Made by a program: the position numbers and the translations under genes. Below the pieces are notes generated by a model. It was not told the DNA's origin. It did no database searches and worked only from the letters and a program-made list of their open reading frames with translations. Positions 55,794 through 63,760 of a stretch of 64,000 bases of DNA are shown here, piece by piece; positions within the stretch are counted from its first letter, which is position 1; each line of letters starts with the position of its first letter. Source of the DNA: Pirellulales bacterium (GTDB lineage Bacteria > Planctomycetota > Planctomycetia > Pirellulales > JACPPG01); NCBI GenBank assembly GCA_036490175.1, contig DASXEJ010000303.1, forward strand, positions 66,511 to 130,510. The letters run 5' to 3'.

Positions 55794-56582
55794 GTGCTTG
55801 CCGAAGAAAGGCGGTCTCGCTTGCTCGAACTTGTGCGGACGCGCGGCTTTGCGGCATTGCCCGACCTGGCCGATGCGCTGGCGGTGTCCGAGTCGACGGT
55901 CCGCCGCGATTTGGACTATCTCGAGGAAGCCGGTTCGGCCAAGCGGACCCACGGCGGCGTCTTCTACACAGGCTCTTCGCCGAAGCTACCACACTTTGAC
56001 GAGCGGCAGCCGGCCCAATGGGACAAGAAGCGGGCGATCGCGGCCAGGGCCGCGCAACTGATTCAAGATGGCGACACGTTGCTGTTGGACGGCGGCACCA
56101 CGACCTACGAGGTCGCGCGCTTGTTGGCGGGGCGCCATTTGCAGATCGTCACCAATTCGCTGCCGGTCGCAAACCTGTTTGCCTCCAGCTCCAACACCGA
56201 CCTGGTGTTGGTCGGCGGCTACGTCTATCCGCGTACCGGCGTGTCGCTGGGACCCTATGCGAATCAAATGCTGGCGTCACTGAGCGTGCGGCGGACCGTG
56301 CTCAGCGTGGCAGGTATTAACGACCGCGGGTTCTACAACAGCAACCTGCTGCTGGTCGAGACCGAGAGGGCCATGCTCGACGCTTCCGAAGAAGTGATCG
56401 TTGTGGCCGACAGCACGAAGTTCGGACATCAGAGCCTGGCCCATCTCTGCCCATTGGAACGAATCGATTATCTGGTCGTCGATCGCGACATCGACGACGC
56501 TTGGCGAGACAAAGTAACGGCTGCGGGCGTAAAGCTCGTGGTCGCCGAGCCACTGGACGCACGCCCTGCGACGAAATCATGA
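55794..56582 (+). CDS. DeoR/GlpR-family transcriptional regulator of the BMC operon
   Basis: Sugar-responsive repressor of 262 residues from the GTG at 55794, whose product begins [13 protein letters not shown] as DeoR proteins usually do; a GTG at 55713 would add 27 unlikely residues. The helix-turn-helix is at about 15-50 ([20 protein letters not shown]). The sugar-phosphate-binding domain contains [10 protein letters not shown] and the usual VVADSTKFG. Its stop overlaps the pduL start as ATGA, so regulator and operon are cotranslated. The inducer is presumably a fucose or rhamnose pathway sugar-phosphate (inference). Confidence 0.9.
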
Positions 56583-57271
56583 GCCTTGCCACGAGTATCG
56601 CCCGACCACAGATCGACCGCGCGAGTATCGAGCGCATCGTCCGCGAAATCGTGCTAGCGCAGTCGGCCACGCCGCCACTGGCGTCGGGTACGTCGACTTT
56701 GCCGAAGCTGGTTGTCAGCATTTCAGCGCGTCATGTACATCTGACGGACGAGCACGTGGAGATTCTGTTTGGCCCAGGCCGAACGCTGACGCCGCAAAAG
56801 CCGCTCTACCAGGATGGGTTTTATGCGGCCGAAGAAACCGTGATGGTTGTCGGCCCGCGACGACGGATGCTCCCCAGCGTGCGCGTGCTTGGGCCGACTC
56901 GGCCCGCCAGTCAGGTGGAACTGGCCTTTACCGACGGGATCTCGCTGGGCGTCGACCTGCCGGTCCGCGCCAGCGGCAAGATCGCAGGTACGCCCGGCTG
57001 CGTGCTGGTAGGGCCGAACGGCGTGGTGGAACTGAAAGAGGGTGTGATCCGCGCCGAGCGCCACGTCCACATGAACAACGAGCACGCCGCCTTGTACGGC
57101 GTGAAGAACGGCGATCGCATGCGGCTGCGCATCGAGTCGACATGCACCACTGTGTTCGAAGACCTGTTAGTGCGTGCCGACGCAACCAGCAAGTTGGAGG
57201 TCCATATCGACACCGACGAGGGAAACGCCGTCGATTTGGATCACGCCACGAAAGTGGAGTTATTGAAGTAA
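56579..57271 (+). CDS. pduL: PduL-type phosphate acyltransferase with N-terminal encapsulation peptide
   Basis: Converts acyl-CoA and phosphate to acyl-phosphate and CoA inside the microcompartment. It has 230 residues. The two related halves each begin with a zinc-binding Hx[11 protein letters not shown] (H52, H54) and [10 protein letters not shown] (H162, H164). Residues 16-27 ([12 protein letters not shown]) form an amphipathic helix set off by a Pro/Ser/Thr-rich linker, the layout of an encapsulation peptide. CoA recycling with the aldehyde dehydrogenase and ATP recovery with ackA are its expected roles. It is cotranslated with the regulator. Confidence 0.95.
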
Positions 57272-57374: not shown

Positions 57375-57674
57375 ATGGCGAAAGGTATGGAAGCGCTGGG
57401 CATGATCGAGACCAAGGGCTTTGTAGCCCTGGTCGAGGCCAGCGACGCAATGATGAAGGCCGCGAACGTCGAGTTCCTCGGCTGGGACAAAGTGGGAAGC
57501 GGCCTGGTGACGGCGTTCGTCACAGGCGACGTGGCGGCCGTGAAGGCAGCTACCGATGCAGGTGCCGCAGCGGCCGGCCGGATCGGTGAAGTCGTGAGCG
57601 TGCAGGTCATTCCTCGCCCGCACGACGATCTGAAGACCGTTCTACCCGGCGCCGCAGCCTCGGGCGGCGACTGA
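57375..57674 (+). CDS. BMC-H hexameric shell protein (first)
   Basis: Shell protein of 99 residues from the ATG at 57375, preceded by GGGAG. The BMC domain reads [20 protein letters not shown], then [20 protein letters not shown] with the pore-lining GSG, and ends [14 protein letters not shown] short Ala/Gly tail follows. Hexamers tile the shell facets. It is paired with a second BMC-H gene downstream, but a 260-base gap with an inverted repeat separates them. Confidence 0.95.
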
Positions 57675-57935: not shown

Positions 57936-58205
57936 ATGCAAGACGCGATTGGATTGTTGGAGACCAAGGGGCTCGTGGCGCTTGTCGAAGCGACCGACGC
58001 CATGGCCAAAGCCGCCAACGTGCGGATCATCAAGCGGGTTTCGATCGGCGGCGGCCTGGTCACCGCGGTCGTACAAGGTGATGTTGGCAGCGTGCGTGCC
58101 GCCGTCGAAGCCGGCGCCGCGGCAGCCACCAAGGTGGGCGAACTGTCGGCCAGCCACATCATTCCTCGCCCCAGCGAAGGCCTGGTCAAGGCGTACTTGT
58201 CGTAA
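57936..58205 (+). CDS. BMC-H hexameric shell protein (second)
   Basis: Shell protein of 89 residues, a compact BMC domain without a tail: [19 protein letters not shown], then [19 protein letters not shown] with the pore loop GGG where the first copy has GSG, and a final [16 protein letters not shown]. The pore difference suggests the two hexamers pass different molecules. An AAAGG site lies nine bases before the ATG. Confidence 0.95.
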
Positions 58206-59437: not shown

Positions 59438-59441
59438 AACC

Positions 59442-59762
59442 ATGTTCGTCGCCAAAGTCACCGGCAGCGTTGTTGCCACCCAGAAGGTCAGCTCGATGAC
59501 CGGCCACAAGCTGTTGGTCGTCGAGCCGTATCGCGTCGATCCGGCCGACCGCAGCCGGCTGGTTTCGACCGGCCGGACATTTATCTCGGTCGATACCGTC
59601 GGGGCAGGCGAAGGAGAATTCGTGCTGATCGTGCAGGGCTCGAGCGCCCGGCTGACGCCCGAGACCAAGAACTTGCCAGTCGATGCCGTGATCATTGGCA
59701 TCGTCGACAACGTGCGCGTCGATAACGCGAACGTTTATGACCGCGAGAGTCAGCATAGTTAA
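59442..59762 (+). CDS. BMC-P (EutN/CcmL) vertex protein (first)
   Basis: Pentameric shell-vertex protein of 106 residues, starting four bases after the ackA stop. The EutN/CcmL fold opens with FVAKVTGSVVATQKVSSMTG, continues HKLLVVEPY and TVGAGEGEFVLIVQGSSAR, and ends AVIIGIVDNV, all typical. It is the longest of the three paralogues, with an extra segment of about 15 residues (DPADRSRLVSTGR) before the GAGEGE loop. Confidence 0.93.
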   Translation: MFVAKVTGSVVATQKVSSMTGHKLLVVEPYRVDPADRSRLVSTGRTFISVDTVGAGEGEFVLIVQGSSARLTPETKNLPVDAVIIGIVDNVRVDNANVYDRESQHS

Positions 59763-59831: not shown

Positions 59832-61265
59832 ATGCAAGCCACTGAAGCTGTCATACGCAGCGTCGTCCAAGAAGTGTTGGCCCGTATCGGCACCGTGCCG
59901 CCCGCCGCGTCTGGGCGTGGATTCACTGGTCGCCACGGCGTGTTCACTTCCGTCGACGAGGCGGTAGCGGCCGCGACCGAAGCATTCGAGCAGCTGTCCG
60001 AGCGCACGATCGAAGATCGCAAGCGGATCATCGACCACATCCGCCGGATTTCGATCGCACAATCGGTCGAGCTCGGCACGATGGAGATGGAGGAAACCCG
60101 CATCGGGCGATTGGTCCACAAAGTCGAGAAGCTGAAGACCCTCGGCGAGCGGACGCCGGGCGTCGAGTTCATGCGCAGCGAAGTTTTCAGCGGCGACCAC
60201 GGTCTGGCCGTGATCGAGCACGCGCCGTTCGGCGTCATTGGCGCCATCACGCCGGTCACGCATTCGCTCCCCACGATCACGGGCAATGCGGTCAGCATGA
60301 TTGCCGGCGGCAACACGTTGGTCGTTAATCCCCATCCCAGCGGCAAGCGCGTGGCGGCCGAAGGTGTGCGCCGCTTCAACGAAGCAATCCTGCGCGATAT
60401 CGGCATCGACAACTTGATCTGCGTATTGGCCGAGCCGACGTTGGAAACCGCCGACCAAATCTTCCGCCATCGTGGCATCAAGCTGATCTGTGTCACGGGC
60501 GGGCCGGCCGTGGCTCGCGCCGCCATGAACAGCGGCAAGCGTGCCATCGTGGCAGGACCTGGCAATCCGCCGGTCGTAGTCGACGAGACGGCCGATTTGG
60601 ATCGCGCCGCACGGGCCATCATTCAAGGTGGTTCCTACGACAACAACCTACTGTGCATCGCTGAGAAAGAAGTGTTCGTCGTGGCCAAGGTCTTCGATCA
60701 AATGCTGGCGGCGATGGATCGGGCCGGCGCCGCAAGGCTTTCGGCCCGCGAAGTAGACTCCCTGACCCGCGTGGCGATCACTACCGTCGGCGAAGGGGAA
60801 CACAAGCACGACGTGCCGAGCAAAGATTTTCTTGGTCAGGACGCGGCCGTGCTGGCTCGCGGTATTGGCAAGCAGGTTCCGCAGAGTGTCGAGCTACTCT
60901 TCGGCGAGACGGACGAGAGCAACCCCTTTGTCCCCGTCGAACAGATGATGCCGTTCGTCCCCTTCGTGCGTGTGCGCGATTTCGAAGAGGCAGTGGCCAA
61001 GGCCAAGCACTTCGAACATGGCTTCCGGCACACCAGCATCATTCACTCACACAACGTGCGCCACATGACGCAGATGGGCCGAGCGATGGATACCACGCTG
61101 TTCGTGAAGAACGGCCCTTGCATGGCGGCATTGGGACTCGGCGGCGAAGGATACCTGTCGTTCTCGATCGCTACGCCAACGGGCGAAGGCGTGACAACGC
61201 CGCTGACCTTCACCCGCGAGCGCCGCTGCTCGATGATCGACGACCTGAGAATCCTTGGGAAGTAA
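59832..61265 (+). CDS. CoA-acylating aldehyde dehydrogenase with N-terminal encapsulation peptide
   Basis: Oxidises lactaldehyde-derived or other short aldehyde to acyl-CoA inside the shell. It has 477 residues, resembling PduP/EutE. Catalytic C275 lies in [11 protein letters not shown], and the nucleotide-binding region has [10 protein letters not shown]. The first 20 residues ([17 protein letters not shown]) form an amphipathic helix followed by a Pro/Ala-rich linker, the encapsulation-peptide layout. It lies between two BMC-P genes. The ribosome-binding site is weak, which may keep cargo below shell levels. Confidence 0.94.
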
Positions 61266-61446: not shown

Positions 61447-61704
61447 GTGCAACTGGGACTCGTAGTTGGCAATGCGACCGCCACGCGTAAGCACGCCTCG
61501 ATGGTGGGTGTGAAGCTGTTGGTGGTGCAGGCCCTGTTGGCCGACGGCCGCTCGCCCGATGGCGAACCGGTGTTGGTGGCCGACAAGCTGGGAGCCGGCC
61601 GCGGCGAGACCGTGATCATGTCGAGCGACGGAAAGTTTACGCGCGAAATGCTGGGGAGCGATACGACGCCGGTCCGCTGGTGCGTGATCGGAATTCAGAA
61701 CTGA
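61447..61704 (+). CDS. BMC-P (EutN/CcmL) vertex protein (second)
   Basis: Minimal vertex protein of 85 residues with a GTG start preceded by GAGGAAG. It reads QLGLVVGNATATRKHASMVG, then VKLLVVQAL, KLGAGRGETVIMSSDG and RWCVIGIQN, the standard EutN/CcmL pattern. Its stop and the next start share one base (TGATG), tying it to the unknown cargo-like protein. Confidence 0.94.
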   Translation: MQLGLVVGNATATRKHASMVGVKLLVVQALLADGRSPDGEPVLVADKLGAGRGETVIMSSDGKFTREMLGSDTTPVRWCVIGIQN

Positions 61705-62432
61705 TGGTCCACGAAGTTGACATCGAGCAAATCGTTCGCGAAGTGCTGGCCGCCTTGCACGGCCGCCTCGCGAACGGGCAAATGCCGCCAACATCGAACG
61801 TAACTTTCAACGGCAATAGCGCAAGCAAACCACAACCCACGGACCTACTGGAACTAACGGATCGACTCGTGACACTGGCCACCTTGGACAATCGTTTGAG
61901 CGGCATTCGCAGCCTGGTGCTGCGGCGCGGCGCGGTGGTGACGCCATCGGCGCGAGATCTGTTGCGCGCGAAAGAAGTCCAAGTTTCATTTGCGGCAATT
62001 GCGCCCCGCGCGTCAGTCGCGCTGGTGGTGGGAATCGCCGAGGCGAGTGGTGCGAAAATGTTCGACAGCGCCGCATTTGTCGAGGCCCTGTTACGAGACG
62101 GCCTGCCGATCGAACGGCTGGCAAAAACCGGCTTGACGAGCGTAGTCGAAGAGTTGGCGGATCATGCGGCACGCGGAGGTCGGCCGACGGTAATGCTGAC
62201 GGCCAGGCCCGAGGCGGCCGCCTGCCTGGCCAACCGCTGGTCCGGCGTGCGTGCCGTGGCCGGCCGCGACGTGGCTTCCATACGCCGCGCCATTGCGGAT
62301 GTGGCCGCCAATCTGGTGGCAGTCGATCCGGCGGGGGATCCGGGAGGGTTTCGCCGCGTTTTGCAGGATTATTGTGCCGGCTGGCCGCGCCCAGTCCCCG
62401 CACTGTTTGACGTACATTTGCCAAAGAACTAA
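61704..62432 (+). CDS. Unknown BMC-associated protein with N-terminal encapsulation-like helix
   Basis: Protein of 242 residues from the ATG at 61704, which overlaps the previous stop. Residues 5-19 (VDIEQIVREVLAALH) match the amphipathic helix of PduL and the aldehyde dehydrogenase, followed by a Pro/Ser/Asn-rich linker, so it is probably cargo. The body (about 50-242) is mostly alpha/beta. ANRWSGVRAVAGRDVASIRR and the following AANLVAVDPAG recall the end of RpiB/LacAB-type sugar-phosphate isomerases (K-PGVRAA, then R-HN-ANVL-LG), but the active-site Cys and His residues of that family were not seen. Function unknown; catalytic or structural roles are both open. Confidence 0.8.
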   Translation: MVHEVDIEQIVREVLAALHGRLANGQMPPTSNVTFNGNSASKPQPTDLLELTDRLVTLATLDNRLSGIRSLVLRRGAVVTPSARDLLRAKEVQVSFAAIAPRASVALVVGIAEASGAKMFDSAAFVEALLRDGLPIERLAKTGLTSVVEELADHAARGGRPTVMLTARPEAAACLANRWSGVRAVAGRDVASIRRAIADVAANLVAVDPAGDPGGFRRVLQDYCAGWPRPVPALFDVHLPKN

Positions 62433-62447
62433 CAGGCGACACTGACT

Positions 62448-62735
62448 ATGCGAATGGGCGAGGTGATTGGCACCGTGACGCTCTGCCGGTCGCACCCGAG
62501 TCTCTCGGGCGCGTCATTTCGGCTGGCGATCCCACTGACGCTGGCGGAGCTCGAGCGTGGCGAACACGCTGCCGGCGAACCGATCGTCGTCTACGACGAA
62601 CTAGGCGCCGGCAACGGCAGCCACATCGCCATCAGCGAAGGGGGCGAAGCCGCACAACCGTTTCGGCCCAACGACAAACCGGTAGACGCCTACAACGCCG
62701 CCATCTTGGATTCGATTGATGTTGGAAGGAAATAG
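62448..62735 (+). CDS. BMC-P (EutN/CcmL) vertex protein (third)
   Basis: Vertex protein of 95 residues: MGEVIGTVTLCRSHPSLSG, then RLAIPLTL, DELGAGNGSHIAISEGGEAA and AAILDSIDV. The barrel pattern is clear, although the central loop is longer and more acidic than in the other two. An alternative ATG at 62454 would remove two residues. Three different BMC-P proteins in one operon match the PVM type and suggest distinct vertices. Confidence 0.92.
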   Translation: MRMGEVIGTVTLCRSHPSLSGASFRLAIPLTLAELERGEHAAGEPIVVYDELGAGNGSHIAISEGGEAAQPFRPNDKPVDAYNAAILDSIDVGRK

Positions 62736-62887: not shown

Positions 62888-63760
62888 ATGAACGTTCACA
62901 AGCTCAAGCAAGAGATGTGCGAGATCGGTCAGCGGATCTACAACCGTGGGTTTGCCGCTGCCAACGACGGCAATATCACGTATCGAATTAGCGAAAACGA
63001 GGTCCTCTGCACGCCGACGATGATCTGCAAGGGCTTTATGAAGCCCGACGATATCTGCAGTGTCGACATGCAGGGCAATCAGCTTTCGGGTCGTCGCAAG
63101 CGCACCAGCGAAGTGTTGCTGCACCTGGCGATCATGAAAGAGCGGCCCGACGTGAAAAGCTGTGTCCACTGCCATCCGCCACACGCCACGGCCTTTGCCG
63201 TAGCGCGCGAGCCGATTCCGCAATGCATCCTGCCCGAGGTCGAAGTGTTTCTTGGCGACGTTCCCATCACGGCCTACGAAACGCCGGGTGGTCAGAAGTT
63301 CGCGGACACGGTGCTCCCATTCGTCAAGCGATCGAACGTGATCATCTTGGCAAATCATGGCACGGTCAGCTTCGGCGAATCGCTAGAGCGTGCCTACTGG
63401 TGGACCGAAATCCTCGATGCCTATTGCCGCATACTGCTGCTGTCAAAACAACTGGGACGCGTCACGTATTTTACCGAGGGACAGACGCGCGAACTGTTGG
63501 ACCTGAAGAAAAAATGGGGCTTCGGCGATGCCCGGTTCGACAAAGACATGGAGAACTGCGACATCTGCGCCAACGACGTCTTCCGCGCCAGCTGGCAGTC
63601 CAGCGGCGTCGAGCGTCGGGCGTTTGACGCCCCGCCGGCGGCCAAAAACGGCACGGCCGCCAAGACCCCGGCCGCGGCACCGGCACCCACCGGCGCCGTC
63701 GATCAGGACGCCTTGGTGCAAGCCATTACCGACCGCGTTTTGGCGGCACTTGCGAAATAG
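62888..63760 (+). CDS. Class II aldolase (fuculose/rhamnulose-1-phosphate type) with C-terminal encapsulation peptide
   Basis: Splits a 6-deoxyketose 1-phosphate into dihydroxyacetone phosphate and lactaldehyde, the entry step inside the shell. It has 290 residues from the ATG at 62888, preceded by GAGGAA. Zinc ligands are H94 and H96 (HCHPPHA) and H157 (NHG); catalytic E75 is in TSEVLLHLAIM. The extra C-terminus has a Cys pair (NCDICAND), a Pro/Ala/Lys linker (about 250-270) and a final helix DALVQAITDRVLAALAK of the encapsulation type, at the opposite end from the other cargo. It sits just before a dehydrogenase. Confidence 0.94.
   Translation: MNVHKLKQEMCEIGQRIYNRGFAAANDGNITYRISENEVLCTPTMICKGFMKPDDICSVDMQGNQLSGRRKRTSEVLLHLAIMKERPDVKSCVHCHPPHATAFAVAREPIPQCILPEVEVFLGDVPITAYETPGGQKFADTVLPFVKRSNVIILANHGTVSFGESLERAYWWTEILDAYCRILLLSKQLGRVTYFTEGQTRELLDLKKKWGFGDARFDKDMENCDICANDVFRASWQSSGVERRAFDAPPAAKNGTAAKTPAAAPAPTGAVDQDALVQAITDRVLAALAK

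Follow-up and report, generated by a model that had tools for sequence, protein, structure and literature searches.

Gene X, which lies in the operon of a sugar-degrading, PVM-type microcompartment of a planctomycete, probably encodes a non-catalytic adaptor between the shell and the enzyme core of the organelle. Four parts were recognized in the 242-amino acid protein, and this architecture is well supported: an encapsulation peptide (EP) near the N-terminus, a linker, a middle module found in several families of microcompartment proteins, and a domain with the fold of RpiB/LacAB isomerases that lacks the RpiB catalytic residues. Because a targeting helix, a shared module, and a fold without catalytic residues are combined in one protein, X is likelier to tether enzymes to the shell than to be an enzyme itself. 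A structural role is supported mainly by the middle module, and the mechanism by which X would act is inferred by homology.

In the window (the whole stretch of 64,000 nucleotides that was analyzed), the operon around X encodes DeoR, PduL, two BMC-H proteins, AckA, BMC-P, an aldehyde dehydrogenase (AldDH), BMC-P, X, BMC-P, and a class II aldolase. X thus belongs to a locus with shell proteins, PduL, AldDH, and class II aldolase, and is counted here as a PVM component. For Planctopirus limnophila, a PVM phenotype on fucose and rhamnose has been published. The features, with the basis for each in brackets, are as follows.

56579..57271, + strand: PduL phosphotransacylase with an N-terminal EP (family match and EP score)
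57402..57674, + strand: BMC-H shell protein 1 (PF00936)
57936..58205, + strand: BMC-H shell protein 2 (PF00936)
59439..59762, + strand: BMC-P vertex gene P1 (PF03319)
59832..61265, + strand: CoA-acylating aldehyde dehydrogenase with an N-terminal EP (family match and EP score)
61447..61704, + strand: BMC-P vertex gene P2, sharing its last base with X (PF03319, E 1.3e-22)
61704..62432, + strand: gene X, encoding EP, linker, module, and RpiB-fold pseudoenzyme, 242 aa (ORF; orthologues and synteny)
61713..61772, + strand: encapsulation-peptide helix of X, residues 4-23, core VDIEQIVREVLAALH (predicted helix; EP profile, 22 bits)
61773..61841, + strand: disordered linker of X, residues 24-46 (pLDDT below 50 for residues 27-43)
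61842..61994, + strand: shared BMC module of X, residues 47-97, with the VVTPSARDLL motif (profile searches and conservation)
62010..62381, + strand: RpiB/LacAB-fold domain of X without RpiB catalytic residues, residues 103-226 (model, fold search, and profiles)
62448..62735, + strand: BMC-P vertex gene P3, 15 bp 3′ of X (PF03319, E 1.3e-18)
62888..63760, + strand: class II aldolase, the PVM signature enzyme, with a C-terminal EP (PF00596; EP score 29)

Elsewhere, the host genome encodes a satellite BMC-T (G000:C268; L166:3995-4774, + strand), a possible counterpart of EutL, with an unusual basic tail of about 55 N-terminal residues rich in Lys, Arg, Ala, and Pro (L166:3995-4160, + strand). 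Just upstream of it lies a DHDPS-family (PF00701) aldolase-like gene (L166:2599-3675, + strand) with an EP-like C-terminus (VDPKAVSQIVQGVLAELNRRGLAN), and its product may be packaged in the PVM organelle as another aldolase.

An earlier note on this DNA had described X as an ORF overlapping a vertex gene, and the ATG of X indeed has one base in common with the TGA of P2; an alternative start, GTG at 61680, would add eight residues. X was found between P2 and P3 in all 40 other planctomycete PVM loci that were read, mostly over 16 kb each, with two (L040 and L065) ending at contig ends. The full order DeoR-PduL-BMC-H-BMC-H-AckA-P-AldDH-P-X-P-aldolase was present in nearly all 40, with one gene called twice in a few of them. 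When 298 genomes sampled from the class were searched, 214 were matched by an X profile and 237 by the vertex family PF03319. Counted from the listed rows, X occurred in 209 of 237 BMC-P-positive genomes versus 5 of 61 BMC-P-negative genomes (Fisher p 2e-33), and the five weak matches in the latter may be true RpiB enzymes. Mere operon hitchhiking is unlikely because X persists apart from the other visible PVM genes in two genomes (G087 and G105). Both the fixed slot between vertex genes and the tight co-occurrence with vertex proteins support an adaptor role.

The N-terminus of X resembles that of known cargo, with an amphipathic terminal helix followed by a linker, as had been read from the sequence earlier. 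An AlphaFold model made with a 31-sequence alignment (mean pLDDT 85) places a helix at residues 4-23. A 15-residue EP profile trained on the EPs of PduL, AldDH, and aldolase, with X left out, gave VDIEQIVREVLAALH 22 bits, compared with 24-29 for the window's own PduL, AldDH, and aldolase EPs and 1.3 for the 99th percentile of 474 control ORF N-termini. The maximum among N-termini of shell proteins, kinases, and regulators was 3.6, and AckA, P2, and DeoR all scored below 0. The helix is kept in most orthologues, with an EP-like segment upstream of the module in 97 of 103 module-bearing X frames. Encapsulation of X via this EP is predicted from sequence. The linker is only 26% identical to that of the same-genus orthologue. 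When all PDB sequences were searched with an X profile, 13 of the 14 matches were RpiB/LacB chains, and the other was a weak match (E 0.42) to residues 1-42 of a diol dehydratase beta chain, its EP region.

The module at residues 47-97 was absent from the earlier note. T80 and P81 are found in all 80 homologues and D85 in 79, within the consensus [VI][IL]T..[LV] ... [AS][IV][VIL]TP.A.[DE]. AlphaFold gives a beta-alpha-beta-alpha-beta fold, with a pLDDT of 89 when the module is modelled alone, and a search of the PDB with the module alone returned no confident match (the lowest Foldseek E was 0.08, and the highest Z, 6.5 to N-terminal domains of Cas1, is at background). The module appears to consist of two alike strand-Thr-helix halves, LVTLATLDNRL and VVTPSARDLL, possibly an internal duplication.

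In a set of 2550 ORFs taken from stretches of the E. coli chromosome and from eut, pdu, and cut operons, the X profile, built from 80 planctomycete X proteins alone, matched TIGR02536 (E 2.7e-9, the best cross-family match), EutT (3e-7), RpiB (5.4e-7), PduM (1.4e-6), and EutQ (2e-4), and more weakly the EP regions of EutC, PduB, PduE, EutE, and PduD. All assigned matches with E up to about 0.1 were BMC-system proteins or E. coli RpiB. Among reversed decoys, neither the X profile nor the module profile had a match at E≤1; the RpiB-part profile had a single one, at 0.91. By this profile, the module is N-terminal in EutT and EutQ and C-terminal in PduM and TIGR02536 proteins, and it also occurs in small unannotated proteins of eut operons. 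The latter, of 88-118 aa in Cetobacterium, Acetoanaerobium, and Fusobacterium, carry it near the N-terminus, and in a KSB1 bacterium it is fused to the C-terminus of a PduL-like protein (L116:5434-6213, + strand).

L124:12633-12899, L123:12485-12805, and L132:12540-12896, all + strand: small module proteins of eut operons (the annotated one is called hypothetical)

Profile-profile comparison (hhalign) of the module gave probabilities of 98% for TIGR02536, the small proteins, and EutT, 96% for EutQ, and 90% for PduM, with all 35 control blocks at or below 7%; since the segments compared were chosen with the X profile, the search of 2550 ORFs is the less biased test. Real profiles were needed throughout: pairwise hhalign against single EutQ, EutT, and RpiB sequences was weak (11-53%), and single-sequence searches with the window X protein (Pfam; phmmer against the PDB) gave nothing useful. 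Family-model searches with 14 diverse X members mostly returned weak TIGR02536 matches (11 of 14), with EutQ in 4, PduM in 3, and some RpiB models. No description of the shared module was found in the literature searched, which comprised open-licence papers.

In Salmonella, shell and cargo are joined by the N-terminal 99 residues of EutQ, in which helices H1/H2 (residues 9-41) associate with the shell and cargo EPs are bound by H3/H4; the C-terminal cupin domain is dispensable for assembly (PMC12487888). The module aligns to residues ~3-38 of E. coli EutQ, overlapping most of H1/H2, and would therefore be equivalent to a shell-binding segment. Both proteins have an N-terminal module followed by a folded C-terminal domain, but in EutQ this domain is a cupin acetate kinase, and no counterpart of the cargo-binding helices H3/H4 was found in X, which has its own EP.

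Loss of PduM leaves the shell partly separated from the core (PMC9132943, PMC12108088). Its mode of action is disputed, the PduB-PduM link of PMC9132943 being opposed by PMC12108088; the protein was described in 2025 as having no known homologues outside Pdu (PMC12108088) and is not mentioned in the EutQ study (PMC12487888). Like X, PduM has an N-terminal EP helix and the module, and its gene lies directly upstream of a vertex gene (pduN; P3 for X). The X profile aligned to both EP and module of Salmonella PduM. In contrast with X, the PduM module is C-terminal and follows a body that was not seen in X, and an RpiB-like domain was not detected in PduM; the E. coli PduM used was from strain E24377A. 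The PduM family is represented by PF15953, NF011957, and TIGR04493. Window X scored 12.3 bits with a PduM model versus a cut-off of 179, and the three weak matches among the 14 members were far below curated cut-offs. TIGR02536 proteins also have the module at the C-terminus but differ from X in that no RpiB-like domain was seen, and the genes of the two named members seen (C. difficile and Listeria) lie, like X, directly upstream of an EutN vertex gene. Window X scored 17.2 bits with the TIGR02536 model versus a cut-off of 152.6, yet was its sole match in the whole genome. A vertex (EutN/PduN/BMC-P) gene directly follows the PduM, TIGR02536, and X genes (L121, L125-L130; window 61704-62735).

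Given the evidence on the EutQ N-terminus and PduM, X probably bridges core and shell in PVM organelles. Its EP helix would join the EP-mediated enzyme core, and its module would dock on the shell, as EutQ H1/H2 does. RpiB-like relatives are dimers, and the RpiB-like domain of X may pair two EP-module arms, allowing one particle to bridge core and shell. More tentatively, it is a real possibility that the module is a general shell-docking unit of catabolic BMCs, carried by otherwise unrelated proteins (PduM, EutQ, EutT, TIGR02536 proteins, small eut proteins, PVM X, and KSB1 PduL) and joined in PVM with an EP and a dead RpiB as a shell-core bridge.

Shortened forms of X bear on this model in different ways. 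Five genomes (G208, G220, G228, G236, and G264) have only the EP and module, ~85 aa, in the same P2-P3 slot, which supports the adaptor idea. Five others (G187, G207, G303, G401, and G407) have only the RpiB half, the module being absent elsewhere in the fetched locus, and several genomes lack the EP of X; the adaptor model does not explain these forms. Opposite halves have thus been lost in different lineages in the same slot between P2 and P3.

The RpiB/LacAB-like ending had been noticed earlier from WSGVRAVAGRD (residues 179-189) and AANLVAVDP (residues 201-209), and the predicted structure agrees. AlphaFold shows an alternating alpha/beta domain from residue 103. All 35 Foldseek matches at E≤0.001 were RpiB/LacAB-type isomerases (E 4.3e-6 to 1nn4), and VIA-align to E. 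coli RpiB gave Z 15.0 and rmsd 2.5 over 131 residues, with unrelated rows at Z≤8.5. The window protein had no match to RpiB/LacAB family PF02502 at E≤1, and 8 of the 14 members matched weakly (best E 2.6e-5; member 1 scored 14.9 against a curated cut-off of 24.7). X shares the ANK/R..GVRA and ANxL signatures with these enzymes but lacks the catalytic Cys, Thr, and His and the CGTGIG loop, and differs in having an EP and module and in evolving fast relative to its operon neighbors. At the positions of E. coli RpiB Cys66, Thr68, and His99, window X has T, R, and D. With E. coli RpiB mapped onto the 80 non-redundant homologues, Cys occurs at the first in 4 of 80; the second is mostly Q/H/A and the third mostly Q/E/A, with Thr outside the seven commonest residues at the second and His outside those at the third. 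Other RpiB positions are retained, namely Asn77 (77/80), Arg83 (67/80), Ala84 (76/80), and Asn103 (75/80). Cys174 of X (window 62223-62225), which is not an RpiB catalytic residue, is kept in 63 of 80.

Conservation of N177, R178, R183, A184, N203, and Cys174 despite lost catalysis, and retention of the RpiB-like domain alone in the same slot in some lineages, would suit a ligand-sensing pseudoenzyme, in which this domain has a phosphosugar or acyl-phosphate as its ligand and controls the core while EP and module only position X. This is unlikely, as N177, R/K178, R183, A184, and N203 also occur in catalytic RpiB and may just hold the fold, the domain is lost entirely in five PVM-operon genomes, and overall constraint on X is weak. 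Nevertheless, a regulatory role may stand as an alternative beside the predicted structural one. Somewhat more doubtful is a reading in which the module serves only as another type of encapsulation tag, so that X would be ordinary cargo tagged twice. The module is also found on an enzyme, EutT, and may therefore be a plain encapsulation tag; it is present at the C-terminus of KSB1 PduL as well. On the other side, X has no recognizable catalytic activity to deliver, and in EutQ the corresponding segment is required for shell and core to associate, beyond loading.

That X is cargo with sugar-phosphate isomerase activity, as its RpiB fold and EP could imply, is very improbable and was rejected on residues, given the positions described above; the genome also has one normal-looking, catalytic-looking RpiB, with CGTGIG and RRHND, on another contig. 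The absence of isomerase active-site residues stated in the earlier note therefore holds, and its proposal of an isomerase fold repurposed as a structural core protein fits the active-site loss, the rapid divergence of X, and its connection with PduM and EutQ.

X is 53% identical to its same-genus counterpart, compared with 82-92% for operon neighbors, and its dN/dS is ~0.43 versus 0.07-0.12, ratios that are approximate because synonymous divergence is near 1; X thus evolves several times as fast as its neighbors. A few relatives, such as those with L101:5911-6588 and G379:C1:4712731-4713407, have an X interrupted by a frameshift or in-frame stop, either genuine or a sequencing error. Despite this fast evolution and these few interruptions, a spurious ORF or decaying remnant is scarcely credible, as every fetched PVM locus has X in this slot, dN/dS is below 1, and homologues are mostly intact, so the spurious-ORF reading is already refuted.

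How enzymes of the core are attached to the shell is one of the main open questions in microcompartment biology, and to our knowledge linkers have been reported in few systems only: CcmM/CcmN, CsoS2, PduB/PduM, and EutQ. If the shared module is real, the PduM and EutQ linkers would become one kind of part, and a segment of ~50 residues would be predicted to bind shell proteins in several organelle types. It would also provide a compact tag for engineering, and a candidate linker for the widespread PVM organelle of planctomycetes.
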